From: Clostridium sp.
Lineage (GTDB): Bacteria; Bacillota; Clostridia; Lachnospirales; Lachnospiraceae
NCBI GenBank assembly: GCA_023664775.1
Contig: JAMPEW010000006.1
Coordinates: 22,415 to 86,414 of the forward strand
Direction of reading: 5' to 3'
DNA: 64,000 nt
The notes under the pieces are model-generated. The model was given only the letters and a program-made list of their open reading frames with translations. It did no database searches and was not told the DNA's origin. Numbering within the stretch: the first letter of the stretch is position 1; each line of letters opens with the position of its first letter. A program made the translations under genes and the position numbers. Shown piece by piece: positions 3,147 through 15,442 of the stretch.

Positions 3147-5039
3147 TTATCCAAGCATGGCAAACAGCAAATATATTATGGTGGCAAGAAATGCCGTTGC
3201 AAACATGATAAGCCCAAAGGAAACGGACCTTGCAAGCAAATTCCCCGTCGCCATAAATTCATGAAGCTTGATATGCTTTTTACGCGGCTTTTGAGTAATG
3301 CTGTTATCCTTTAGTATTGTTTTCCTGATTAAGTACACAGGACCCTCTATGCACCAATCACATATCCGCATAAAAAATGTACATATAGCCGGCAGTATTC
3401 CAAAGAGTATCGGCTTATAAAGCATTTTCTCAAGCGAAAACCATGCAGGAATAATTCTTTTCCTTACATTTCCGGCAATTGCAACATAAAGGATCACTCC
3501 AATCGCAAGCGATATTCCTGCCCCTTTCAAATTGTCCCATGAAAAATATGCAAAGTCCTTAAGCGATGCAGCCCCAAAAAATGACATTCCCTCATTTCCA
3601 AGCTTTTCAAGCGTAGCATAAGGTGCAGCACCGCATACAACCACAAACGCTGTCAAAAGTCCAAGCATGATATATACGAATACTGACAGCTTGCCAGCCG
3701 CTTTATTTCCATCTGCTTTCTCATCATCCGGTTTTAGTTCATTATCAGCTTTTACAGCTTCCACTACAATCTCTGCATCCCTGTCATCCTGCTTCGGTTT
3801 ACACCAAAAAACAGGAATATATATCTTAAGCATATAGGCAAACGTACAGCCTCCACCAATCAAAAACAGTATCTCAAGCGTTCTCACAAAGGAGGCTGAG
3901 CCTTGTGCCATTCCTGAATTAATAAGCGTAAGATATTCTAAAATCCCCTCATGTATCAATGTCTTGCTCACATATCCCGACAAGAAAGGAACGCCTGATA
4001 TGCCGAGAACTGCTATCGTAAACACAATTTTCAAAAAAATTTTATTGCAGCCCCAGCCCTTAATCTTGTTAATGTCAAGGTTTCTTCCACATTCCATTGA
4101 AATAATACCTATAATAATAAAGAATATCATCTTATATACGGAATGATTTATCATATGGAGAAATACGCCTTCCGGTGCAAGCGCATTGCAATCCACACCT
4201 GACACGGAACCTCCAAGTATACAAAAAACCCCTAATGCCACAATGATATACCCAATCTGTGACATGGAGGAATAAGCAATCACCTTTTTTGCATCAACAG
4301 AAAGCATAGCCCAAAGACCGCCCACAAGCATCGTTATAATACCTAAAACAAGTATCATCATTCCCCACTCGTATAAGCCTCTCATAATGCCTGCACAAAC
4401 TACAATCATGCCGATAATACCGGTTTTTGAAAGCACGGCTGAAAGAAGTGCCGCAGCAGGCGCAGGCGCCGCAGTATAGGATGGCGCAAGCCACGTATGA
4501 AGCGGAAACATGCCAGCCTTTGCCGCATAACCGAATATGATAAGGACACACGGCACAAAAAGCTTAAATTTTTCATCATGGCTCATTGTCATTCCAAGCT
4601 TAGAAAGTTCATCATAATAAAGAGTTCCTGTATGCCTTGCCAAAAGCAGTATTCCCGTCAGTGTTGCAAGTCCCCCCAGCACAGCATATGTAAGGTAAGA
4701 GGCAGCAGCCCGCATATCCTTTGCAGTGCCGAAATGCGCAACCCACGGATATGAGCTAAGAGACATAACCTCAAAAAAGATAAACGCAGAAAGCATATCA
4801 TTGCTCAAAACCATGCCAAGAGCAGCTACAAGCACAAGCATGCTAAAAAATACAAAGCCTGACGCCCCGCCGTCCTCCTTGCCGGTTATCTCATCGGTAT
4901 AGCCCTTCTTAAAATAATCCTTGGAAAATTCCATTGCAATAATCCACATTATAATTGTGAGTGAGCAAAATATTATTCTGAAGCCGTCAAGCTTAAAGGA
5001 AATTCCCATTCCGAAAAGTCCATCTATAACCAATTCCAT
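3147..5039 (-). CDS. NuoL/MrpA-like proton-conducting subunit (antiporter subunit 4)
   Basis: A polytopic membrane protein of the complex I antiporter-subunit family, 630 aa, last gene of the Mrp-type operon. The TM5 glutamate is in FIFFEVMSLSSYPWV (about residue 90). The TM7 lysine motif is GYAAKAGMFPLHTWL, followed by APAPAAALLS and the TM8 region DAKKVIAYSSMSQIGYI. It is longer than its paralogues because it carries a charged loop (KPKQDDRDAEIV to GNKAAGK, about residues 415-445) and extra C-terminal helices, resembling hydrogenase-4 component B or MbhH-like proteins. It probably moves H+ or Na+ within the complex. Confidence 0.85.
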   Translation of the reverse strand: MELVIDGLFGMGISFKLDGFRIIFCSLTIIMWIIAMEFSKDYFKKGYTDEITGKEDGGASGFVFFSMLVLVAALGMVLSNDMLSAFIFFEVMSLSSYPWVAHFGTAKDMRAAASYLTYAVLGGLATLTGILLLARHTGTLYYDELSKLGMTMSHDEKFKLFVPCVLIIFGYAAKAGMFPLHTWLAPSYTAAPAPAAALLSAVLSKTGIIGMIVVCAGIMRGLYEWGMMILVLGIITMLVGGLWAMLSVDAKKVIAYSSMSQIGYIIVALGVFCILGGSVSGVDCNALAPEGVFLHMINHSVYKMIFFIIIGIISMECGRNLDINKIKGWGCNKIFLKIVFTIAVLGISGVPFLSGYVSKTLIHEGILEYLTLINSGMAQGSASFVRTLEILFLIGGGCTFAYMLKIYIPVFWCKPKQDDRDAEIVVEAVKADNELKPDDEKADGNKAAGKLSVFVYIMLGLLTAFVVVCGAAPYATLEKLGNEGMSFFGAASLKDFAYFSWDNLKGAGISLAIGVILYVAIAGNVRKRIIPAWFSLEKMLYKPILFGILPAICTFFMRICDWCIEGPVYLIRKTILKDNSITQKPRKKHIKLHEFMATGNLLARSVSFGLIMFATAFLATIIYLLFAMLG

Positions 5040-5050
5040 TCAGATACCTC

Positions 5051-6520
5051 CTATAATCCCTGCGCCATCTGCTGTAAAAAGTCTGTAATCGGCTCCGCAA
5101 AAAAGCTCAAAGCCACGACCACAGCAGTGATTACCGCAAAAGGAAGCTTCATTCGAATGCCTGTGCGTTTTACATTGTCAAATGTATCAGGCACTCCCGC
5201 TTTTTCATCGTAAACAAACGCCCGTATGGCAATTGACAAAACATACATTGCCGTAAGCAGTCCCGATATAAGCAAAATTACTGCGCCTGCATATGCAAAG
5301 CCTCCCTCTAAAACAGCAGCCTTTATCAGGCTCCATTTACTGATAAAGCCGAACAGTGGCGGCACTCCCGTTATTGCTAGGGCGCATATTGTAAAGCATA
5401 CCATGGTAAACGGCATGGCTCGACCTATTCCTGCCATTTCATAAACATACTGCTTTCCCGACTTTACCATGATTGCTCCTACACAGGCAAACAGCACTAT
5501 TTTTATAAAGGCATGGGCTATCATGTGGGTCATGCCTCCCACAAGACCCTGCTCACTCATAAGGGTAAATCCAAACACGATGTAGGACAGATTACTCACG
5601 GTTGAATAGGCAAGCCTCCTCTTAATATGCTGCTCCTTAAATGCCATGCAGGAGCCGAACAGTATCGTTATTAATGAAGCTGACATAACAAGATACTGCA
5701 CCCACGTTCCCTTTAAAATTTCAGTTCCATAGCTGAAATAAGTAATTCTTCCAATGGCAAATGCACCTGATTTAACAACTGCAACCGCATGAAGAAGTGC
5801 CGTTACCGGGGTCGGTGCGACAGATGCCTTTGGAAGCCATCCGTGGAACGGAAATACTGCCGCCTTAACCCCAAAGCCAAAGAAGGCAAAGGCATACCAA
5901 ACCCTCATAAGCTGCTCCTTGTCCTTCGGCAGATTATCAAGCACACCGCCCCACATAAATGACGAGGTTTCCCCATAGTTCAGTATAAACATAAGGCTTA
6001 TAAATCCAAAGCTTGCCCCTGCTATGGAATAAACCATGTACCTTCTCGCCGCCCTGATAGACTCCTTGTTCATCTCATGCATTACAAGCGGCAGGGTGAC
6101 AAGCGTAAGCATCTCATAAAATAGATACATCGTCTCTATATTTCCTGCAAACGCAATGCCGATTGTAATTCCATATGTCATTGTATAAAAGGCAAAAAAG
6201 GAATTTTTACGCGATTCCTCCTCCATGTATTCAAAGGCATAAAGGCTTGCAAAAGGCCACAGAAAGGATACGATACCCGCAAACACGGCAGCCATTTTAT
6301 CAATATGAAATTCTATCGTCAATTCATTTGTAAGACGGAACAATATATAGGTCCCCTCAGGCGGTGCAAAAAGAAGCAGGAAAACAACGATTGTATTTAT
6401 CATAACACCTGTCTCAATATATATGTTTCTCCTTCTGTCGCTGTCAAACTGAAATACAAAAGCCAAAAGACCTACAAGCATCGGAAACAGCACCGGAAAA
6501 TAAATTAATATGTCTGGCAT
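5051..6520 (-). CDS. MrpD/NuoM-like antiporter subunit (antiporter subunit 3)
   Basis: 489 aa with about 13-14 membrane helices. It keeps the ion-translocation residues of the family: Glu in TMYLFYEMLTLVTLP, Lys in FGVKAAVFPFHGWLP, Lys in LLHAVAVVKSGAFAI and Lys in the late helix GFISKWSLIKA. It lies 11 bp after the preceding paralogue gene ends and 11 bp before the next begins, so it is part of the same polycistron. It is clearly paralogous to its neighbours but not a recent copy. The name mrpD is withheld because four such subunits are present. Confidence 0.87.
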   Translation of the reverse strand: MPDILIYFPVLFPMLVGLLAFVFQFDSDRRRNIYIETGVMINTIVVFLLLFAPPEGTYILFRLTNELTIEFHIDKMAAVFAGIVSFLWPFASLYAFEYMEEESRKNSFFAFYTMTYGITIGIAFAGNIETMYLFYEMLTLVTLPLVMHEMNKESIRAARRYMVYSIAGASFGFISLMFILNYGETSSFMWGGVLDNLPKDKEQLMRVWYAFAFFGFGVKAAVFPFHGWLPKASVAPTPVTALLHAVAVVKSGAFAIGRITYFSYGTEILKGTWVQYLVMSASLITILFGSCMAFKEQHIKRRLAYSTVSNLSYIVFGFTLMSEQGLVGGMTHMIAHAFIKIVLFACVGAIMVKSGKQYVYEMAGIGRAMPFTMVCFTICALAITGVPPLFGFISKWSLIKAAVLEGGFAYAGAVILLISGLLTAMYVLSIAIRAFVYDEKAGVPDTFDNVKRTGIRMKLPFAVITAVVVALSFFAEPITDFLQQMAQGL

Positions 6521-6532
6521 AATCCCACCACC

Positions 6533-7843
6533 TTACATAAGAGCTGTCGCAAAAGAGGCAAGCTCATCAAAAATCAAATCAGGGTAAACAGCTAAAATCA
6601 GTATCAATATAACAAGCACAATCAAAGGAGCAGTCATGGAAGCCGCCGGCTCACATTTAGTCTGCGCATGCTCCTCATATTGCCGTTTCCCAAAATATCC
6701 CTTTATAAAAACAGGAAACAGATATCCTGCTGTCAAAAGGGCGCTTATCATAATCACGATCATTCCTGCAAAAGCAAGCTGTGATACGGCACCTGAAAAT
6801 TCAAGTGCGCCGCTTGATATATACCACTTGCTTAAGAATGTTCCCGCAGGCGGAATACCCACAAGAGTTATGCCTGCAATTGTGTAACAGCAAAACGTAA
6901 CCGGCATATATTTTCCCAAACCGTCAAACTCATCCACAAGCTTTTTCCCTGTCTGATGGATGATATTTCCTGCCACAAGGAAAAGCACTATCTTGACCAT
7001 TGCGTGCATAATAACATGAATGAGCGATCCCATAACCCCAGCCTCATTTAAAAGCGATAACCCAAACATGATATAATTCATTTGGCTGACCGTAGAGTAA
7101 GCCAGCCTTTTCTTAAATATCTTTTCCCGGTATGCAAGCATGCTTCCCAACAGTATTGATACAATGGCAAGTGCCATCCATGCCGTCTGCACCCATGTAT
7201 TCATAATAAAGCCTGACCCAAAAACATAAAAAACAGTTCTGATAACCGCAAATACCCCACATTTTACGACAACTCCTGACAGCAGTGCTGAGCCCGGTGC
7301 AGGTGCGACAGGATGTGCCTCAGGAAGCCATGCATGATACGGCAGGATTGCCGCCTTGACGCCAAAGCCAATTATCATAAGAAACGCACATGCCAAAAAC
7401 AGCGTCTTATTTCCATTCAAAAAATCGATTCCAAGAGAGCCACCTTTTACAAACGGAATGTCCGCCCCTTTATTTGCATAGAGGGCAAAAACACCAAAAA
7501 GCGCCGTAAATGCTCCTGCTATGGAGAAATAAAGTATTCTGAAGCCGCCCTTTTCCGATGCCTTATTTCTGTCGTGAAAAACAAGCATCGCCGTGGAAAG
7601 GGATATTAATTCAAAGCTTATGTACATTGTAATAAGATTATCCGCAAAAAACTGGGACAGCATTGACAAATAGCTGATACAATAAAATACATAATATATT
7701 TTTTTATGGTTATCCTTCTTAAAATATCCTGCATGATATATGCCGATAAGCACATACATTACAGTGGCAAGAATTGCAAATATAACACCAAGCTCATCCA
7801 TGCGGTATCTGATTATGAACTCACTGTTAAGCCTTACTTCCAT
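6533..7843 (-). CDS. MrpD/NuoN-like antiporter subunit (antiporter subunit 2)
   Basis: 436 aa, the shortest of the four antiporter paralogues. It shows the TM5 Glu in TMYISFELISLSTAM, the TM7 motif GFGVKAAILPYHAWLPEAHPV, the TM8 motif APAPGSALLSGVVVKCG and a late Lys in GTFLSKWYISSG. All residues needed for proton transfer in the family appear to be retained. The start has a clear AAAGGAGAG. It begins 76 bp after the previous gene ends, the largest gap inside the operon; that gap contains a weak hairpin (AGTCC arms) but no obvious promoter. Confidence 0.87.
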   Translation of the reverse strand: MEVRLNSEFIIRYRMDELGVIFAILATVMYVLIGIYHAGYFKKDNHKKIYYVFYCISYLSMLSQFFADNLITMYISFELISLSTAMLVFHDRNKASEKGGFRILYFSIAGAFTALFGVFALYANKGADIPFVKGGSLGIDFLNGNKTLFLACAFLMIIGFGVKAAILPYHAWLPEAHPVAPAPGSALLSGVVVKCGVFAVIRTVFYVFGSGFIMNTWVQTAWMALAIVSILLGSMLAYREKIFKKRLAYSTVSQMNYIMFGLSLLNEAGVMGSLIHVIMHAMVKIVLFLVAGNIIHQTGKKLVDEFDGLGKYMPVTFCCYTIAGITLVGIPPAGTFLSKWYISSGALEFSGAVSQLAFAGMIVIMISALLTAGYLFPVFIKGYFGKRQYEEHAQTKCEPAASMTAPLIVLVILILILAVYPDLIFDELASFATALM

Positions 7844-7919
7844 AACTTTTTCTCTCCTTTATTTGAACATAAGTCCTTCCAAGCTTTCGCTTTTTACAAA
7901 GGGACTGGCGCTGTATATA

Positions 7920-9413
7920 TTAATCAAACATGCCAATTCCTTCAAATATAAAATCAATGATAGGCTGCGCATGCGTTCCGAGAAATACATTTAAAGCAAC
8001 AAAAATAATACATGCAGCTATAAATAACGGATCTGCCTTATATATAACCGCCTTATCCTCATCCTTGACAGGTCTGTAAATTGATATAATTGCCCTCATA
8101 AAATAAACAGCATTTAAAAGCGTACTAAAGGCAAGCGCAAGCATAACAATTACAAGCTTTACGGTAGAGGCATTAATTGCAGCATCCGCAAAGCAAACCT
8201 TCGAGATAAATCCCGCAAGCATCGGAATACCTATCATGGAGCAGGCGCCAACAGTAAACGTGGCTCCCGCTATCGGATTTTTTATTGCAGAGCCGCTCAA
8301 ATCCCGAAATTCCTTACTGTCATTTGAAACATAGGAAAGTCCGTCAGCAGCTATAAACATCATTGATTTTGCAGATGAATGTGCAAATATATGGAATACC
8401 GCCGCCATCATTCCAAGCTCGGTTCCAAGTCCCATGCCCATGTAAATATAACCAATCTGCGCCACTGAGGAATAGGCAATCATCCGTCTTACATCCGTCT
8501 GCGCAATTGCCCTTGCGGAGCCTGCAATCATGCCGATTACGCCAAAGGCAAAAAAAACATTTCCTATTTTTGATGACACGATGATATCCATGCCGATTAC
8601 CCTGTACATAATCTTTATGAGCAGAAAAATGTACCCCTTTGATATAAGTGATGAAAGCAGGGCAGATGATGTGGCAGTTGAATATCCATATGCGTCAGGA
8701 AGCCATGCGTGAAATGGAAAAAGCGCACTTTTTATTGCAATTCCCACACACAAAAGTCCTACCGTAATCGTAAGTGGAAGCTCATACTCGCCAATTGCCA
8801 CATTAGCAGCGATAGCTTCTTTTATATTGGACATGAGAAGATGTCCTGTCAGGTCATAAAGCATGGAAAGTCCAAGCAGGATAAGACCTGAACCGATAAG
8901 ACTCATAATCATATACTTCATGGCAGACACAAGACAATGTCCATTATCCCTGCTCATAATAAGGGCGCATGCGGAAATTGTCATAATCTCTATAAAAACA
9001 TACCCCGTAAAAAGGTCGTTTGTATAAATCATTGCAAGAAGCGCCGCAAGAAGCAGGTCAACCATAATATAATAAAGATTTCTTTTCTTAGGCGCAACAT
9101 CTATAAATACGCGCTTCATTCCTCCAAGGACAGATGCAAACATAACGATGGAAAATATTGTCGCCGTAAGTGCCTCAAGTATGCCTACCCTGATTTCATT
9201 TCCCCATGGCGCCGGAAAATGACCCATATAATATGTATAGGACTGGTCAAGCCCTGCCACGTAAAAAAATGTAATGGCTGACATAACCGAAACTGCACCT
9301 ATGACGCAGAGAGAAAACACTCTTGCTGCCCTGTCGCTCATAATTGATATGATTACCGCCGATACCATGGAAAGTATGATACAGAAAAACGGCAAATTTC
9401 TAAGGAAGTCCAT
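7920..9413 (-). CDS. mrpD: Mrp antiporter subunit D-like (antiporter subunit 1)
   Basis: About 497 aa, immediately downstream of mrpC in the position of mrpD/mbhH. TM5 Glu is in GYVFIEIMTISACAL. The TM7 lysine is in AIKSALFPFHAWLPDAYG, the TM8 lysine in LLSSLISKGYIFLL, and a late Lys in AGFISKVCFAD. ATG 9413 was chosen because AAGGGAGG precedes it and it begins one base after the mrpC stop; the frame is open 13 codons further into mrpC without an RBS. Probable role: H+/Na+ exchange across the membrane. Confidence 0.88.
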   Translation of the reverse strand: MDFLRNLPFFCIILSMVSAVIISIMSDRAARVFSLCVIGAVSVMSAITFFYVAGLDQSYTYYMGHFPAPWGNEIRVGILEALTATIFSIVMFASVLGGMKRVFIDVAPKKRNLYYIMVDLLLAALLAMIYTNDLFTGYVFIEIMTISACALIMSRDNGHCLVSAMKYMIMSLIGSGLILLGLSMLYDLTGHLLMSNIKEAIAANVAIGEYELPLTITVGLLCVGIAIKSALFPFHAWLPDAYGYSTATSSALLSSLISKGYIFLLIKIMYRVIGMDIIVSSKIGNVFFAFGVIGMIAGSARAIAQTDVRRMIAYSSVAQIGYIYMGMGLGTELGMMAAVFHIFAHSSAKSMMFIAADGLSYVSNDSKEFRDLSGSAIKNPIAGATFTVGACSMIGIPMLAGFISKVCFADAAINASTVKLVIVMLALAFSTLLNAVYFMRAIISIYRPVKDEDKAVIYKADPLFIAACIIFVALNVFLGTHAQPIIDFIFEGIGMFD

Positions 9414-9414
9414 G

Positions 9415-9801
9415 CTATATGCCTCCCTTCCTTGATATAATGGCAATCTCATCTATATCAAGCGTGTGGTACCTTCTATAAAGCTTTACCGTAAGGGCAA
9501 GCATAATGGCAGTAACGCTTACGGACACAACGATACCCGTAAGAACAAGCCCCGCAGGAATAGGATTTATGTATGCCTCCATATCCCTTACGCCATCCAC
9601 GACGATAGGCGCCTTCCTGCTTTCAATATACCCCTTTGATGCAAGAAAGAGATATACCGCATTATCCATAAGATTAAAGCCGATTATTTTCTTTATGAGA
9701 TTTTTATTGAGCAGGAGGGTCGTAAAGCCGATTCCAAATATGACTACCGCCGCCGTCTCATAATAGTTCGTCATAAGATGACTCAAAAGCTCCTTAAGCA
9801 T
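9415..9801 (-). CDS. mrpC: Mrp/Mbh antiporter subunit C (NuoK-like)
   Basis: 128 aa with three membrane helices, the NuoK/MrpC fold. GFTTLLLNKNLIKKIIGFNLMDNAVYLFL matches the conserved helix region of the family (described, not quoted at length: key features are the NLIKKIIG and MDNAVYLFL stretches), and the GLVLTGIVVSVSVTAIML helix carries the family TGIVV signature. It sits between the MbhE/MrpB-like fusion gene and the first MrpD-like subunit, the conserved order in Mrp and Mbh operons. MrpC subunits are needed for assembly of the complex. Confidence 0.9.
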   Translation of the reverse strand: MLKELLSHLMTNYYETAAVVIFGIGFTTLLLNKNLIKKIIGFNLMDNAVYLFLASKGYIESRKAPIVVDGVRDMEAYINPIPAGLVLTGIVVSVSVTAIMLALTVKLYRRYHTLDIDEIAIISRKGGI

Positions 9802-9804
9802 ATC

Positions 9805-10761
9805 CTATATCCTCCCTCTCTTAAATAGTGCATAAAATCCATACATGGTACACGCAACAACAAGACCCACGCATATATTCAGATACAATATAAGCCCACT
9901 GCTAAGTATTGCTCCCGGCGTACCGAGCGGTATCATGCTCCCTATATGATTTGCTCCCGTAAAAAAGGAATAGCTCTTTGCAAGACCATAAAAAAGAAGC
10001 GCTCCGAAGGTTATTCTCCTGAAGGTTTTATAGGAAAACAGCCGTTCCATTTTCTCAAAGCCATATGCATTTGCAAAAAGGATCAGTCCCGCTCCCATAA
10101 TCGCACCACCGGAAAAGCCCCCGCCTGGGGACAAATGTCCGTTTAAAACGACATAAATTCCAAACACCAAAATAACCGGCACAAGAAATTTTGCCACCTT
10201 CTCAAGTATAATATCTCTCCTGAAATCAACCACGTCCTCATCTGCAAGAGGCTCCCCGCCGTCATTTCTAAGCAAAATAAGCACGCAGCAGCAGGCAATA
10301 AACAAAACATTTGACTCGCCAAATGTATCAAATGCCCTGTAATCAAGTATCATGCCGGCAACTATGTTTACTGCGCCCGTTTCATCTAAGCCGTCCTCTA
10401 TATATCTTTCTGAAACCTCATTGTTTACAGGATTATCCTTATCTCCAAATGTAGGCAGTGAGGAAACCGTAAAAAGCAGGACGCATATAATGATAATTGC
10501 AACAACAACCGAAATGATATTATACGCCTTGTTCAGCCGCCCCACGAATTTTCTGCTTCTGAACGCCTGATAAAGCTCCCGCCTTTTGATATCATTTGCA
10601 TCGGTAAATTCAGAAAAAAATTCATTCGACTGAACAACCTTATCATTTTTTTCCTGTTTTTTTCTTGGATGAACCTCGTCAGGAATTTCCAAGTCTCCGG
10701 TCATAAAATCAGAGAATTTTTGACTGAAGCTATCCTTATAATTCTCCTTTAGCTTACTCAT
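9805..10761 (-). CDS. mrpB: Fusion of MbhE-like segment and MrpB (MnhB domain)
   Basis: 318 aa, much longer than a normal MrpB (about 140 aa). After a charged cytoplasmic N-terminus of about 85 residues comes a membrane helix and the MbhE/MrpA-C-terminal motif DETGAVNIVAGMILDYRAFD. Next is a second helix and a linker with DVVDFRRDIILEKVAKF. The last 150 residues form the MnhB domain with GHLSPGGGFSGGAIMGA. Two separate genes of Mbh-type operons thus appear joined in one frame. It overlaps the preceding gene by 8 bp, indicating translational coupling. Confidence 0.85.
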   Translation of the reverse strand: MSKLKENYKDSFSQKFSDFMTGDLEIPDEVHPRKKQEKNDKVVQSNEFFSEFTDANDIKRRELYQAFRSRKFVGRLNKAYNIISVVVAIIIICVLLFTVSSLPTFGDKDNPVNNEVSERYIEDGLDETGAVNIVAGMILDYRAFDTFGESNVLFIACCCVLILLRNDGGEPLADEDVVDFRRDIILEKVAKFLVPVILVFGIYVVLNGHLSPGGGFSGGAIMGAGLILFANAYGFEKMERLFSYKTFRRITFGALLFYGLAKSYSFFTGANHIGSMIPLGTPGAILSSGLILYLNICVGLVVACTMYGFYALFKRGRI

Positions 10762-11065
10762 GACCTTTTTCCTCTCCTTTTGCTATATTATTTTCCACAT
10801 TATCATCATGTTCCTCATCCTCAATATACACGTTTAACGCATCTATCTTCCTAAGAACAAGGAAAAATAAAATACTCGTCACGCCTGCACCGACTGCCGC
10901 CTCCGTTATGGCAAGATCAGGCGACTCCAAAAGAAACCATATGATACACATAACAAGGGAAAAGGACATAAAAATAACAACTGAATTAATAAGCTTTTTT
11001 GATGTACATGCAGCTATGGCGCACACAATTAAAAGCACAAGCAGCACAATATGAAATACAGTCAT
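10754..11065 (-). CDS. MbhD-like subunit (DUF4040; MrpA C-terminal segment)
   Basis: 103 aa with three helices. The diagnostic motif is SPDLAITEAAVGAGVTSILF, found in the C-terminal half of MrpA and in free-standing MbhD. Its presence as a separate gene, between mrpG and the MbhE-MrpB fusion, is the arrangement of Mbh/Mbx/archaeal-type Mrp modules rather than of the seven-gene mrpABCDEFG operon. The start overlaps the mrpG stop as TAATG, and the RBS GAGGTG lies in the end of mrpG. Confidence 0.85.
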   Translation of the reverse strand: MTVFHIVLLVLLIVCAIAACTSKKLINSVVIFMSFSLVMCIIWFLLESPDLAITEAAVGAGVTSILFFLVLRKIDALNVYIEDEEHDDNVENNIAKGEEKGHE

Positions 11066-11403
11066 TATTTTTTCACCTCACATTCATCCTTAAAATTTTC
11101 ATTTGTCTCTATCTCCATCTTCGAAACAAGATGTGCCGATACAGGCGATGCAAACATAAATACGATAAGCACAATCAAAAGCTTTAATGTCGTATAGCTA
11201 AAGCCTGCTATAATCATAATTCCGATAAGCACCATATCAAGTCCTAAGGTGTCCCCGATTGCCGAGCAGTGCATTCTGTTCAGCACATACTTAAATCTGT
11301 ATACTCCGATTATGGCAAGAATTTCGGCAAGCATGCCGCACACAATAAATAATGCCGCTATAATAAATCTAATCCACTGTAATACTTCCATAAGCTGCTC
11401 CAT
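11065..11403 (-). CDS. mrpG: Mrp/Mbh antiporter subunit G
   Basis: 112 aa with three membrane helices and the MrpG features: an N-terminal helix, the IGVYRFKYVLNRMHCSAIGD loop (family YRFxD..RMHA type), and TLGLDMVLIGIMI. The C-terminal SPVSAHLVSKM matches the family tail in which residues after helix 3 are conserved. It follows mrpF by 15 bp and overlaps the next start. A small structural subunit of the cation antiporter complex; the individual role of MrpG is poorly defined in any organism. Confidence 0.88.
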   Translation of the reverse strand: MEQLMEVLQWIRFIIAALFIVCGMLAEILAIIGVYRFKYVLNRMHCSAIGDTLGLDMVLIGIMIIAGFSYTTLKLLIVLIVFMFASPVSAHLVSKMEIETNENFKDECEVKK

Positions 11404-11418
11404 CTCTTTTCCTTAATT

Positions 11419-11850
11419 TTATCCTTCCATGCCGCCCTTAGAGCGCATTCTTTTTTTAGACCTTTTGGGCGTATTTCTTCTTTTGTATCTGTTTCTTCTT
11501 GTCATGATTTTCCTATTGTCATCCTCAATTTTTGCCTTTGCACCCGGAATTGCCTCAAGGGTTTTTATGTCAATCCTTCTGTATTTATTGGTATAAACCC
11601 TGTAAAGCACAACTACAGCAACAAAGCTTATGGCGGCATATATAATACAGATATCCGCAAGATACCCCTCGCCAATCCATTGGGAAAGAATTGCAATTAT
11701 CATGATAACGACCGTCCCTGCCATATTTGAACATACAATTCTGTCCGTAAGCCTCGGCCCCCTGATTGCCCTGATTAAAATAAACAATATGCAAAGTGCC
11801 AAAATACTCATGGACACCACATACAAAACCATATAAGCCTTATCCAGCAT
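11419..11850 (-). CDS. mrpF: Mrp/Mbh antiporter subunit F
   Basis: About 143 aa. The first 90 residues are a standard three-helix MrpF with RAIRGPRLTDRIVCSNM, the family RGP..DR motif. The remaining 50 residues are a highly basic extension rich in Arg and Lys (RRNRYKRRNTPKRSKKRMRS) not found in typical 90-aa MrpF proteins, probably cytoplasmic. ATG 11850 forms a TGATG overlap with the mrpE stop; a GTG one codon upstream (11853) is an alternative start with slightly better RBS spacing. Confidence 0.87.
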   Translation of the reverse strand: MLDKAYMVLYVVSMSILALCILFILIRAIRGPRLTDRIVCSNMAGTVVIMIIAILSQWIGEGYLADICIIYAAISFVAVVVLYRVYTNKYRRIDIKTLEAIPGAKAKIEDDNRKIMTRRNRYKRRNTPKRSKKRMRSKGGMEG

Positions 11851-12332
11851 CACACGTTTTCCCCCTCACACTTTATCTTCTCAATTTTTGTGAGAAGCCT
11901 TACAAATACCGAATTTTCCATACCCTCTGCAAGCTCCTTGTCAAAGCAGTGCACCAGATAGGTATCTTCATTTACATCAACCGTTATTGTACCCGGTGTC
12001 AGTGTAATTGAATTTGCAAGCATGACCTTACAGCTCTCATCCGTAAGCGTCGTTTTAAAACTTACAAGCTCAGGCTCATTTTCATATTTATCAAGTACAA
12101 TAAAGCGCAGCATGGTAATATTTGCCTTCACAATCTCCCAAATGAGCACAAAGAAATATGCGGAAATAAGGGGCAGCAGCCTGTAAAATTTCATTTCTTT
12201 TTTTATGCTGTAATCCATGCATTTGCATAAAAAAACAAATATGACCACAGTAATTACAATTCCGAAAATTACAATTTCAAGGGTAATATTTGCATTAAAA
12301 ACAATCCATGCCAAAAATAAAAGCGCTAACAT
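11850..12332 (-). CDS. mrpE: Mrp/Mbh antiporter subunit E
   Basis: 160 aa, first gene of the antiporter operon. Two N-terminal membrane helices precede a cytoplasmic domain with VLANSITLTPGTITVDV and VHCFDKELAEGM, both hallmark MrpE motifs. ATG 12332 has the RBS AGGAG. It is transcribed divergently from spoVAA. In other bacteria Mrp complexes exchange Na+ for H+ in pH and salt homeostasis, while Mbh-type complexes couple to hydrogenases; no hydrogenase genes are linked here. Confidence 0.9.
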   Translation of the reverse strand: MLALLFLAWIVFNANITLEIVIFGIVITVVIFVFLCKCMDYSIKKEMKFYRLLPLISAYFFVLIWEIVKANITMLRFIVLDKYENEPELVSFKTTLTDESCKVMLANSITLTPGTITVDVNEDTYLVHCFDKELAEGMENSVFVRLLTKIEKIKCEGENV

Positions 12333-12433: not shown

Positions 12434-12464
12434 AGAATAATATGGACAAATGCAAGAAATAATA
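12434..12464 (+). promoter_or_regulatory. Possible sigma-G-type promoter for spoVA
   Basis: AGAATA, an 18-nt spacer and AATAATA resemble the sigma-G consensus (TGAATA, about 18 nt, CATACTA) with one and two mismatches. The position, 25 nt before the spoVAA ATG, fits known forespore control of spoVA. The AT-rich background makes chance matches likely. Confidence 0.35.
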
Positions 12465-12488
12465 AAAAATAAAAAAGGAAGAACAGCA

Positions 12489-13127
12489 ATGGAAAATAAA
12501 ACTCTGTATTTTTCCCTGGAGCAAAGTACATTGGTTCCTTCAAGAAAGGTACATGTAGGTGATATAGCATCAATATTTTGCTCTGATATGGATATCAGCC
12601 ATGCTGCTGAGAAAACGCTTATCACGACGCTGACAAACACGGAGCAGGATCAGATTGTTATAACGGCAATGAAAATTGTTGAGCTTATTTCCCTTCAATA
12701 TAAGGATTTAAGCATCGTCAGCATAGGCTGTCCTGAAACAATCGTATACTACCGTAATCTTAAACCGGTATCGAAGTTTAAGGGAAAATTAAAAAGCGCA
12801 CTTATGATACTGCTTGCCTTTTTTGGGACTGCCTACTCAATCATGTCCTATAACGGTGACGTTGATGCCGTAAAGCTCTTAAACGACCTATACATTTTGT
12901 TTACCGGTGACAGAAACGGAAACACCCTAGGGCAAATACTTGGAATTGTTGCATATTCCCTGGGACTTTGTGCCGGCATGATTATTTTCTTTAATCATGG
13001 CATTAACAAGAAAAAAACGGACGACCCGACTCCCCTTCAGGTACAGATGCGTCTATACGAGCAGGATGTTAATACCTGTATTATCGTTGACAGCACAAGG
13101 GATAACAAAACCTTAGATGTTAATTAA
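12489..13127 (+). CDS. spoVAA: Stage V sporulation protein AA
   Basis: About 212 aa. The N-terminal half (residues 1-95) is the soluble SpoVAA domain with LVPSRKVHVGDIASIFC, and the rest holds two membrane helices (ALMILLAFFGTAYSIM; ILGIVAYSLGLCAGMIIFF). SpoVAA is part of the SpoVA channel that loads dipicolinic acid into the forespore and releases it at germination. ATG 12489 is preceded by AAGGAAG; an upstream in-frame ATG at 12450 has no RBS. The first gene of a five-gene plus-strand operon. Confidence 0.9.
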   Translation: MENKTLYFSLEQSTLVPSRKVHVGDIASIFCSDMDISHAAEKTLITTLTNTEQDQIVITAMKIVELISLQYKDLSIVSIGCPETIVYYRNLKPVSKFKGKLKSALMILLAFFGTAYSIMSYNGDVDAVKLLNDLYILFTGDRNGNTLGQILGIVAYSLGLCAGMIIFFNHGINKKKTDDPTPLQVQMRLYEQDVNTCIIVDSTRDNKTLDVN

Positions 13128-13530
13128 AAACTCTGCCTACGTTTTATTCTGCCTGGTTGCAGGGGGAGCTATCTCGGCAGGATATGTAGCATTTATAACC
13201 TTGCTTGGTGTTTTTGACAAATTATCGGAAAAGCTCAAGGCAGTAAAATACAGCTATGTCATAGAAACATTAATCATCATCGGGGTAACCATCGGCAATT
13301 TTGTATACCTGCTCCAGCTTAAATTACCCTTCGGACTTACAGGTTATGTATTTTTTGAGCTTATGGGCGGTATATTTACAGGCTGTCTTGCAGGCGCACT
13401 TGCAGAAACCATAAATATTTTTCCAATACTTTCAAGGAGATTTTCAATCAGGAAAAATCTTCACTATGCACTTATTGCAGCAGCCTTGGGAAAGGCGGCA
13501 GGTTCCCTAATCCAGCTTCTGCTGCTTTAA
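13117..13530 (+). CDS. spoVAB: Stage V sporulation protein AB
   Basis: 137 aa with four predicted membrane helices. The segments GGAISAGYVAFITLLGVFDK and FELMGGIFTGCLAGALAETI match the SpoVAB family. The start overlaps the end of spoVAA by 11 bp, with translation probably coupled. A membrane component of the dipicolinate-handling SpoVA complex in the forespore inner membrane; the separate role of AB is not known in model organisms. Confidence 0.88.
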   Translation: MLIKNSAYVLFCLVAGGAISAGYVAFITLLGVFDKLSEKLKAVKYSYVIETLIIIGVTIGNFVYLLQLKLPFGLTGYVFFELMGGIFTGCLAGALAETINIFPILSRRFSIRKNLHYALIAAALGKAAGSLIQLLLL

Positions 13531-13548
13531 ATGAAAAAGGAGGTAACT

Positions 13549-14010
13549 ATGAAGGTAAAACAAAACGACGAGGAATACAACAAATATGTTGATGCCGTAA
13601 CTCCGAAGCACAACCCGTTTAAAAACTGCTTCAATGCTTTTTGGATAGGCGGACTTATCTGTGTCATCGGACAGGCAATCAATAATTTCATGATGTCATA
13701 TTTTGAATTTAACAAGGATGACGCAGGAAGCTACACATCACTTATCTTAGTTTTATTAAGCGTGCTTCTGACAAGCTTTAACCTTTACAAAAAAATTGCC
13801 AAATACGGAGGGGCAGGAGCCCTTGTTCCAATTACCGGCTTTGCCAACTCTGTAGCCTCACCGACAATTGAGTATAAAAAGGAGGGGGAGGTTTTTGGAA
13901 AGGGCGTCAAGGTATTTACCATTGCCGGTCCCGTAATCCTGTTCGGAATTGTAACAAGCTTTATACTCGGTTTTATTTACTGGGTGGTAAAGCTGATAGG
14001 CTTAGTATAG
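13549..14010 (+). CDS. spoVAC: Stage V sporulation protein AC
   Basis: About 153 aa, an integral membrane protein with motifs YGGAGALVPITGFANSVASP and GLICVIGQAINNF, typical of SpoVAC and shared with SpoVAE. In Bacillus, SpoVAC acts as a mechanosensitive channel for dipicolinate. ATG 13549 follows AAGGAGG at 6-7 nt; the frame also contains an ATG at 13531 that would start inside the RBS region, so the later start is preferred. A charged cytoplasmic N-terminus precedes the first helix. Confidence 0.93.
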   Translation: MKVKQNDEEYNKYVDAVTPKHNPFKNCFNAFWIGGLICVIGQAINNFMMSYFEFNKDDAGSYTSLILVLLSVLLTSFNLYKKIAKYGGAGALVPITGFANSVASPTIEYKKEGEVFGKGVKVFTIAGPVILFGIVTSFILGFIYWVVKLIGLV

Positions 14011-14022
14011 GAGGAAATGTAT

Positions 14023-15054
14023 ATGAATAATCAGTCAGTGGGAAAACAAAGCATAAAATTTGAAAATCCTCCCGTCATCATCAGTCAGGCGTCAGTTGTC
14101 GGAGAAATGGAGGGGCAGGGACCTCTCGGCTCATATTTTGACCAAATTGAAACCGACCCTTCCTTCGGACAGGAGTCATGGGAGCTTGGAGAGTCTGAAA
14201 TGGTAAGACGGGCAGTATCTACAGCCATAACAAAATCAGGGCTGGAACAAAGTAAAATAAAATATATTTTCGGCGGCGACCTCTTGGGACAGCTTATCGG
14301 TACAACCTTCGGGCTGAAGGATTTTAATATACCGCTTTTCGGTCTTTACGGTGCATGCTCCACATGTGGAGAATCACTTTCGCTTGCCGCAATGACGGTA
14401 GCGGCAGGCTATGCAGAAAACGTCCTTGCCGTTACAAGCAGTCATTACGGTGGTGCTGAAAAGCAGTTCCGTTTTCCGCTTGAATACGGAAATCAGCGTC
14501 CCTTGAGCGCTACATGGACTGTCACGGGAAGCGGCGCATTTATTGTAAGCCAGACAAATGGGGAACAGCCCATGCTCCAATATCCGCGCATAACCGCAAT
14601 CACGACAGGAAAGGTAGTGGATTACGGCGTGCGGGACAGCCTTAATATGGGGGCATGCATGGCACCTGCGGCGGCGGACGTTATCTATCAATGCTTCGAG
14701 GACTTAAACATGAAGGAAACCCAGTTTGATAAAATCATAACCGGCGATTTAGGTAAGGTTGGAAGTGAAATTTTAATTAAGCTTCTAAAGGATAACGGTC
14801 ATGACATCAGCAAACAGCATATGGACTGCGGTGTTAATATATACAACAATGAACAGCAGGATACACACAGCGGAGGAAGCGGCTGCGGCTGTTCTGCCGT
14901 GACGCTTGCAGGCTACATTATTCACAACCTCAAGCAGCATATGTGGAAAAAGGTTCTTTTTGTTCCTACCGGAGCGCTTTTATCAACGGTAAGCTACAAC
15001 GAGGGACAGACAATCCCCGGAATCGCTCATGCACTTGTGATTGAACAGCAATAA
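14023..15054 (+). CDS. spoVAD: Stage V sporulation protein AD
   Basis: About 343 aa, a thiolase-fold protein. Family segments include IISQASVVGEMEGQGPLG, FGLYGACSTCGESLSLAAM, VTGSGAFIVS and DYGVRDSLNMGACMAPAA. SpoVAD in Bacillus binds dipicolinic acid directly and is essential for its uptake into spores. ATG 14023 lies 8 nt after AGGAGG; the ATG at 14017 is too close to the RBS. The C-terminal GGSGCGCSAVTLAGYI matches the family end. Highly conserved, so the assignment is secure. Confidence 0.95.
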   Translation: MNNQSVGKQSIKFENPPVIISQASVVGEMEGQGPLGSYFDQIETDPSFGQESWELGESEMVRRAVSTAITKSGLEQSKIKYIFGGDLLGQLIGTTFGLKDFNIPLFGLYGACSTCGESLSLAAMTVAAGYAENVLAVTSSHYGGAEKQFRFPLEYGNQRPLSATWTVTGSGAFIVSQTNGEQPMLQYPRITAITTGKVVDYGVRDSLNMGACMAPAAADVIYQCFEDLNMKETQFDKIITGDLGKVGSEILIKLLKDNGHDISKQHMDCGVNIYNNEQQDTHSGGSGCGCSAVTLAGYIIHNLKQHMWKKVLFVPTGALLSTVSYNEGQTIPGIAHALVIEQQ

Positions 15055-15082
15055 AAAATAAAAAAATTATCAGGAGAATACT

Positions 15083-15442
15083 ATGGATTATATAAAAGCA
15101 TTTATCATTGGCGGCATTATATGTATCTTGGCACAAATATTAATGGACACGACAAAGCTTATGCCCGGTCGGGTCATGGTTATCCTTGTATGTACAGGCG
15201 CAATCTTAGGCTCCGTCGGAATTTATAAGCCATTTCTTGAGTTTGCAGGAGCCGGTGCCTCCGTACCACTTACAGGCTTTGGCTATAACCTTTGGAAGGG
15301 AATAAAGGAAGCAGTTGATACAGATGGATTTATAGGATTATTCCGGGGCGGATTTACAATGGCTGCGGTTGGAACCTCAGCGGCGCTTATCCTGTCCTAC
15401 TTTGCATCTCTTATATTCCAACCTAAAATGCCGAAAAATTAA
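15083..15442 (+). CDS. spoVAE: Stage V sporulation protein AE
   Basis: 119 aa with three to four membrane helices. FAGAGASVPLTGFGYNLWKG is the SpoVAE/SpoVAC family signature, and the N-terminal FIIGGIICILAQILMD matches the SpoVAEb type. The RBS AGGAG precedes the ATG, 28 bp after spoVAD. It is the last gene of the operon; a palindrome and a bidirectional terminator follow. No spoVAF or separate spoVAEa gene is present. Confidence 0.92.
   Translation: MDYIKAFIIGGIICILAQILMDTTKLMPGRVMVILVCTGAILGSVGIYKPFLEFAGAGASVPLTGFGYNLWKGIKEAVDTDGFIGLFRGGFTMAAVGTSAALILSYFASLIFQPKMPKN

Follow-up and report, generated by a model that had tools for sequence, protein, structure and literature searches.

What does a membrane arm with four antiporter-like subunits do when no hydrogenase module is encoded beside it? 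The question is raised by ten genes at 3147..12332 on the minus strand of a 64,000-nucleotide stretch of Lachnospiraceae DNA (Clostridium sp., contig JAMPEW010000006.1; "the window" below denotes this whole stretch). An earlier reading of the letters without database searches, called here the sequence-only reading, offered two answers, a stand-alone multi-channel cation/H+ antiporter or an arm that docks to an oxidoreductase encoded elsewhere. We favor the first, with a probability of roughly 0.7: the locus would encode a stand-alone group 3 Mrp-type (CPA3) cation/H+ antiporter in which four antiporter-like subunits (APLS; proteins with the PF00361 domain, Proton_antipo_M), each with an H+ path of its own, are stacked in a row on one cation module made of MrpE-F-G-B, MbhD-E, and MrpC. 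This is the best supported of the readings, given a complete set of small subunits, retained ion-path residues, and no redox gene of the kinds searched for beside 50 related loci.

The ten genes form one tight, transcription-unit-like run on a single strand, with gaps of -8 to 76 nt, the widest lying between D1 and D2 (the four APLS are named D1–D4 in transcription order). A division of D1–D4 between two operons, which the sequence-only reading had named as a ground for abandoning its proposal, is therefore rejected, as is an artefact or pseudogene, since all open reading frames (ORFs) are intact and the gene order recurs. Pfam assigned MNHE, MrpF, MnhG, MbhD, MbhE plus MnhB, Oxidored_q2, and four Proton_antipo_M domains to the ten proteins, giving the order MrpE, F, G, MbhD, fused MbhE+MrpB, C, and D1–D4 (497, 436, 489, and 630 aa); on recheck, these lengths and the boundaries of the locus agreed with those first read from the letters. 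The Mbh-type order that had been proposed is borne out, except that MbhE and MrpB are one fused gene (9805–10761), as in MbsE, so that the layout is Mbs-like rather than strictly Mbh-like. Likewise, there is indeed no mrpA gene, but the C-terminal part of MrpA is present as MbhD and MbhE, and D4 ends in a NuoL/MrpA-like extension composed of transmembrane helix (TM) 15, an amphipathic linker, and TM16, as recognized by eye and by alignment. Group 3 Mrp systems are defined as lacking mrpA and having only mrpD-type subunits, sometimes several (PMC8415708). The window locus combines MrpE, F, G, B, and C with MbhD/MbhE in one operon, contains neither an mrpA gene nor a fused NuoL+MbhD/E gene, and carries four mrpD-type PF00361 genes, and in gene content it thus belongs to this group.

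The arrangement recurs in relatives. A D4 query (1e-20) was run against 150 evenly drawn family genomes, among them that of the window, and matched 28, two of which proved to be other systems (a three-APLS form in G103 and an MBH-type locus with NuoH adjoining in G137). Four APLS in the window's order, which the sequence-only reading had suggested looking for in Lachnospiraceae, were verified in 24 of the remaining 26 genomes, window genome included, with the full gene set on a single contig in 20 of the 24; in the other two carriers (G006 and G128), the locus lies on contigs that end early. Such recurrence excludes a chance assembly of four APLS. A class-wide draw of 391 genomes gave a D4 match at 1e-45 in 27, three of them already in hand, and loci from 20 of the other 24 were examined: six are four-APLS loci (one from the window's family; five show the fused MbhE-B and one ends at a contig end), ten are three-APLS loci with separate MbhE and B (D1 being split between frames in one), two are four-APLS loci of another make (family f26; one APLS is split between frames in one of them), one has D1 and two D4-type genes, and one shows only two APLS genes. 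ORFs of relatives are longest-frame calls whose lengths may be over-extended at the start; BLAST found neither E, F, and G upstream of locus L048 nor E, F, G, and MbhD of L058. Within the window's genus, the operon is present in 5 of 25 genomes, many of them incomplete, and one D4 is just 41% identical to that of the window, a patchiness that hints at loss and transfer. One record with a Lachnospiraceae-type operon (L037, JAMPBO010000008.1) is titled Bacteroides sp., and the title of this metagenome-assembled genome looks mislabelled.

Homologues of Rnf, NuoH, NuoB, NuoCD, HyfC, HyfG, and HyfI (1e-8, 40% coverage) were found beside none of 34 four-APLS and 16 three-APLS or variant loci, taken at up to 24 kb each (the window cut to its first 24 kb, and some loci shortened by contig ends). 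Hence, at 0 of 50 loci did the search reveal a conserved oxidoreductase module of these kinds, the finding that the sequence-only reading had said would speak against a stand-alone arm. Other kinds of oxidoreductase, FeFe hydrogenases for example, were covered beside the class loci by clustering of flanking ORFs only, in which six families recurred in at least three loci and none was widespread in four-APLS loci. One of these is a sigma-54-dependent activator (GAF-PAS-AAA-HTH) upstream of eight three-APLS or f26 operons (L088, L090, L094, L096–L099, and L102; assigned by Pfam for L090 only); the others, judged by eye, are an ABC ATPase at five loci, a histidine kinase at four, and three families at three loci each, one of which resembles an iron-type alcohol dehydrogenase. 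The window assembly (2.65 Mb, 96% complete) encodes exactly four PF00361 proteins, all at the antiporter locus, and gave no match to PF00374 (NiFe large subunit), PF00146 (NuoH), or PF01058 (NuoB/NiFe small subunit). On these results, a NiFe or complex-I-type redox partner in this genome is rejected. Because PF00146 occurs in only 1 of the 26 family carriers (G010), the idea of docking to an oxidoreductase encoded elsewhere is not supported for partners of the complex-I type.

Residues of the proton path are kept in all four paralogues. In an alignment of 14 sequences (the window's paralogues and near relatives), TM5 Glu, TM7 Lys, TM8 Lys, and TM12 His/Lys are invariant, in agreement with what had been seen in the letters for TM5, TM7, and TM8. 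The same residues occur in all or all but one of the 31–32 members of each D1–D4 clade (L060 and L061 were left out of residue counts; Mrp-type rows alone were used, since at TM12 the alignment of the distant E. coli NuoM and NuoN is faulty), the exceptions being Asn for TM7 Lys in 1 of 32 D2 and Asn for TM8 Lys in 1 of 32 D3 sequences. TM12 Lys is replaced by Glu in 2 of 8 three-APLS distal subunits and in both f26 distal subunits, and one Halostagnicola subunit lacks TM7 Lys and another TM8 Lys. A TM8 His, the mark of MrpA and NuoL, is present in D3 (32 of 32) and absent from D1, D2, and D4, with Ser at this position in 31 of 31 D4 sequences. Along the cation path, MbhD Glu55, which aligns with MbhD Glu69 (6u8y_D and 6cfw_D alignments), is kept in 44 of 44 rows, MrpF Asp37 in 43 of 43, MrpG His45 in 28 of 30, and, in four-APLS forms, MrpC Asp46 in 32 of 32, MrpB Phe216 in 32 of 32, and MrpB His209 in 30 of 32; MbhE Asp145 and Glu149 are present in every row having the domain. 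Together, the proton-channel residues of the four paralogues and the cation path appear compatible with cation/H+ exchange, except for an Asp-to-Asn change in MrpF that is considered below.

The four subunits also behave as distinct lineages. In trees of 108 APLS (SH-aLRT support only) and 50 APLS (bootstrapped), D2 and D3 form separate clades of 13 sampled operons each, as do D1 and D4 in the 108-APLS tree, and D2 and D3 are sisters (94 ultrafast bootstrap and 99 SH-aLRT in the 50-APLS tree). The D2/D3 pair adjoins the middle subunit of three-APLS operons, whose first subunit groups with D1 and whose last groups with D4. Judged from these trees, the fourth subunit arose by a single duplication of the middle subunit in a three-APLS operon, giving D2 and D3. 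In the f26 loci, the fourth subunit falls in another part of the tree, its exact place being unsure where long branches meet (50-APLS tree), and is an independent gain. That each paralogue forms a clade of its own and that all are kept together over 13 sampled operons is what would be expected of subunits with fixed positions.

For two-APLS Mrp complexes, a charge-relay coupling scheme with 2 H+ per Na+ has been published, whose authors regard the two-APLS unit as extendable to three or four by the same mechanism (PMC7419157). Applied to the window, orthology would make D1 the proximal and D4, whose C-terminal extension is NuoL-like, the distal subunit, with D2 and D3 between them. H+ entering through each APLS would change the charge in the next APLS of the row, and at the last coupling point, MrpC/MbhD, a cation, most likely Na+, would be moved the opposite way and exported through the small subunits MbhD, MbhE, MrpB, E, F, and G. 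Since four APLS share one cation module, the published ratio for two APLS predicts about 4 H+ per cation. This would be a low-gear exchanger, driven forward as long as the cation-motive force stays below four times the proton-motive force; we infer that Na+ could thereby still be expelled when the proton-motive force is very small.

The window genome has an rnf operon, for a ferredoxin:NAD+ oxidoreductase, on another contig (contig 31), and its sole PF00137 match is an F-type c subunit with a Q...ET motif; Q.....ES/T is the Na+-binding motif of the c subunit (PMC4320612). On the best reading of these genes, the cell is Na+-energized through Rnf and a Na+-type ATP synthase. Rings of c subunits with E...ET are of the Na+ type as well, and a Q/E...ET copy occurs in all 21 four-APLS genomes whose F-type c gene could be read (15 Q and 6 E; 5 of the 26 carriers remained unread, and a second copy was fetched for G025 and G086). 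Among non-carriers, 17 of the 32 read have such a copy, in a sample that is a small part of the 124 and is represented by one best-scoring F-type copy each (10 more, in which an F-type c was not recognized, were left out). With the top copy alone counted on both sides, the figures are 20 of 21 carriers and 17 of 32 non-carriers (p = 0.0016, with genera not independent), so that an association between the four-APLS operon and a Na+-type ATP synthase is suggestive only. Where Rnf and a Na+-type ATP synthase are both present, the exchanger would link the H+ and Na+ gradients; in Methanosarcina acetivorans, Mrp has been proposed to balance these gradients beside Rnf (PMC4500148).

Several observations weigh against a single stacked antiporter. 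Only 27 of the 32 four-APLS rows keep MbhE Asp140. All 43 rows from three- and four-APLS loci have Asn (Asn43 in the window, from an alignment to 6z16_F) at the MrpF position equivalent to Asp35 of A. flavithermus and Asp38 of B. pseudofirmus, which has been placed on the proposed Na+ path (PMC7419157, PMC9568556). This change is common to three- and four-APLS clostridial loci and is no mark of the four-APLS form alone; replacing the Asp by Asn or Glu was mild in B. subtilis and harmful on expression of that complex in E. coli, while replacing it by Leu was inactivating (PMC7419157). Furthermore, D2 and D4 of the window have lost TM1 and TM2, which are retained in the majority of relatives. 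D2 ORFs measure 479–554 aa in 22 of 26 relatives and 436–453 aa in the four nearest (L035–L038), which share with the window D2 the absence of TM1–2; among D4 relatives, L037 still has the TM1–2 that the window lacks. The linker between TM15 and TM16 of D4, measured in one MAFFT alignment on which the lengths depend, is no longer in four-APLS loci (median 108, n = 13) than in three-APLS loci (median 117, range 49 to 160, n = 11 distal subunits, including the odd L101, the distant L060, and the Halostagnicola rows); it spans 81 residues in both window D4 and E. coli NuoL, and the two f26 loci have linkers of 186 and 204 residues. In complex I, forms that have acquired an additional pump are reported to carry an insertion of about 26 residues in the lateral helix (PMC9040806), and a comparable lengthening with the fourth APLS is not borne out here, which, as far as the alignment can be trusted, weakens the one-row picture. 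Finally, linkage of Rnf to related operons in other classes leaves some probability to a redox-coupled reading of the arm.

That linkage emerged from a phylum-wide draw, in which D4 matched 47 of 398 genomes, 45 of them from other classes (all but the window genome and G189). The surroundings were read in 21 of these 45: five have two APLS, seven have three, four have four, four have at least five, and in one the number could not be fixed (two of the counts stop at a contig end). Eight of the 21, from four families, have the whole rnfCDGEAB operon upstream of the cluster and on its strand, 85–648 nt from the first cluster gene (Pfam assignments for RnfC and RnfB), and only one or two Rnf-like genes are in reach in G590, G903, and G911. 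Three of the eight linked clusters have two APLS and the full small-subunit set (G623, L197; G661, L200; G577, L203), and three are full Mrp/Mbh-type operons with three APLS (G823, L194; G699, L198; G800, L202). The remaining two (G847, L196 7077–16687; G666, L199 2868–12091) have two APLS, 494 and about 800 aa long, near which small subunits were not found, and are candidates for an Rnf with extra ion-pump subunits. A moaC gene stands between rnfCDGEAB and the Mrp/Mbh-type operon in L197. Rnf is thus a recurrent genetic neighbor of short versions outside the class, and the window's version is unlinked.

With Rnf as the partner, docking to an oxidoreductase encoded elsewhere therefore retains some footing: the arm could be the ion-translocating part of an Rnf-linked redox system, with the Rnf of contig 31 docked to it or functionally locked, and PF03116 (Rnf) is found in 24 of the 26 family carriers. 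However, carriers are not enriched for the domain relative to non-carriers (110 of 124, p = 0.74), one carrier that is 98% complete (G114) has no PF03116 match, and the class loci are without linkage, both the 34 with four APLS and the 16 with three or a variant set. Where linkage does occur, it amounts to co-regulation or shared physiology and is no proof of docking. We consider a redox-coupled arm of this kind unlikely and retain the stand-alone antiporter.

Alternatively, one locus could supply two or more antiporters, for example D1 and the small subunits with D3–D4 or D2–D4 as alternative partners. Clusters of seven APLS in G801 (L195 and L211) and G930 (L207 and L212) lend this some substance: each lies on one strand with a single B-C-D-E-F-G-MbhD-MbhE set and includes two D4-type subunits (the second in G930 being a weak D4 match), so that they look like, and possibly are, two stacks or alternative arms. 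The unextended D4 linker and the rnf-linked L196 and L199, with two APLS and no small subunits found nearby, point the same way. In contrast, the window clade has one distal-type D4 and one small-subunit set, and its four paralogues stay together in the 24 verified genomes; we regard several antiporters from this locus as improbable. Two further clusters depart from these patterns. G911 (L206 and L217) has two facing clusters, one strand carrying B-C-D-E-F-G-MbhD-MbhE with two more APLS genes and the other five APLS without small subunits. In L190 (3268–13754, G679), a fused MbhE-B is accompanied by just three APLS, D1, a D2-like subunit, and D4, which gives the look of a four-APLS operon that has shed its D3, and a NuoF/HydB-like gene of 646 aa lies upstream on the opposite strand.

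Docking to a complex-I- or MBH-type oxidoreductase encoded elsewhere, to which the closeness of MbhD, C, MbhE+B, and D1 to MBS/MBH parts among solved structures might point, is largely refuted by the missing PF00374, PF00146, and PF01058 domains, the absent 4% of the genome being its residual loophole, and we give it almost no credence.

Genes of the antiporter operon in the window, listed in transcription order
Feature	Coordinates	Strand	Basis
MrpE-like, 160 aa	11850..12332	-	PF01899, E = 7.8e-28
MrpF-like, 144 aa	11419..11853	-	PF04066, E = 9.1e-9; aligned to 6z16_F
MrpG-like, 112 aa	11065..11403	-	PF03334, E = 4.2e-18
MbhD-like, 103 aa, equivalent to the first part of the MrpA C-terminal domain	10754..11065	-	PF13244, E = 5.7e-21; aligned to 6u8y_D and 6cfw_D
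Fused MbhE+MrpB, 318 aa	9805..10761	-	PF20501 and PF04039; best solved match 6u8y_E
MrpC/NuoK-like, 128 aa	9415..9801	-	PF00420, E = 5.6e-22; best solved match 6u8y_G
D1, 497 aa, MbsH/NuoN-like, probably proximal	7920..9413	-	PF00361; best solved match 6u8y_H, E = 2.7e-45; tree
D2, 436 aa, duplicate of D3	6533..7843	-	PF00361; trees
D3, 489 aa, with the TM8 His typical of MrpA/NuoL	5051..6520	-	PF00361; residue alignment
D4, 630 aa, with C-terminal extension	3147..5039	-	PF00361; best solved matches 6cfw_H and 7qru_A

The genes around the operon are of other kinds. A divergent spoVA operon (12450–15442; spoVAA-AB-AC-AD and a further SpoVAC/AEB-type gene) lies upstream, and unrelated genes follow downstream, namely an ORF without a Pfam match over the cut-off and rubrerythrin, nifS-like, and nifU-like genes.

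The chief value of the operon lies in the series that surrounds it, with two, three, four, and up to seven APLS, and in the Rnf linkage of the short forms. One tentative proposal, against which we would sooner bet than for it, is that APLS number acts as an evolvable gear of stand-alone Mrp, each added subunit contributing one more H+ per cation. Forms with two, three, four, and up to seven APLS do coexist in the phylum, the fourth here deriving from the single D2/D3 duplication; on this proposal, Rnf would be a genetic and perhaps physical partner of the short versions and the window operon the 4 H+ : 1 cation form. How H+ pumping is coupled along the APLS row is a central open problem of complex I, and in stand-alone Mrp, which has no redox part, a natural series of two, three, four, or more APLS would allow the number of H+ channels to vary at a constant driving reaction. 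The H+:cation ratio over this series, if measured, would test the charge-relay model directly, with bearing on complex I. The operon also suggests a way in which anaerobes whose proton gradients are small might sustain a Na+ economy.

Compared with known systems, the window locus is set apart first by what it lacks. MBH is recognized by NiFe hydrogenase subunits and the NuoH-like MbhM, MBS and MBX by an oxidoreductase module with NuoB, NuoD, and NuoH homologues, and the complex I membrane arm by NuoH and a quinone module; the domain searches of the genome and the neighbor searches beside the loci found none of these, and the small subunits are of the Mrp/Mbh type. MBS and MBH of Pyrococcus (6u8y and 6cfw) nevertheless supply the best solved matches to the window's MbhD, C, MbhE+B, and D1 (for MrpF, the closest solved match is a Mrp), and MbsE is an MbhE-B fusion as in the window (PMC8415708), but the window has four APLS rather than one or two and is without the hydrogenase, the sulfane-reductase module, and the NuoH homologue. 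In the classical two-subunit Mrp of groups 1 and 2, the NuoL-like part of MrpA carries TM8 His and is fused to the MbhD/MbhE part, whereas D4 has neither feature and the His resides in D3. The stand-alone group 3 Mrp of Pyrococcus furiosus likewise has no mrpA, MbhD/MbhE-type parts, and an E-F-G-B-C-D set, but only one MrpD (PMC8415708), and the stand-alone cyanobacterial mrpCD1D2EFGAB and Microbacterium mrpFGBCDDAE operons have two mrpD and an mrpA (PMC5703873). In the group 3 Mrp of Nitrospira (mrpA-G), two further NuoM/NuoL-like genes follow mrpD and could amount to three or four APLS, although they are not described as such there (PMC7784846). Our literature search, in which few subscription journals were covered and papers were represented in part, found no statement of a stand-alone Mrp with at least four APLS, the Nitrospira cluster being the nearest. 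What distinguishes the window from the group 3 systems listed is the combination of four APLS without mrpA, an extended distal subunit, and a fused MbhE-B.

Closer in composition are the three-APLS operons. The Mrp operon on a plasmid of Peptoclostridium acidaminophilum DSM 3953 has orthologues of D1, D3, D4, and the small subunits and no D2, and clostridial three-APLS operons keep MbhE and B separate, unlike the window. A plasmid of the haloarchaeon Halostagnicola larsenii carries a three-APLS operon with the same gene order that is more distant, its APLS branching deeper in the 108-APLS tree; beside the haloarchaeal subunits fall the MrpD-type subunits of the S. meliloti pSymA locus, which is presumably green complex I. 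Multi-pump arms as such are already known from complex I variants that have additional pumps (2M complex I, rhizobial green complex I, and Complex_I_3 of Manganitrophaceae), which have four or five APLS but are redox-driven (PMC9040806). The four-APLS stand-alone Mrp is real and conserved, and it belongs to group 3 Mrp rather than representing a new kind of system.

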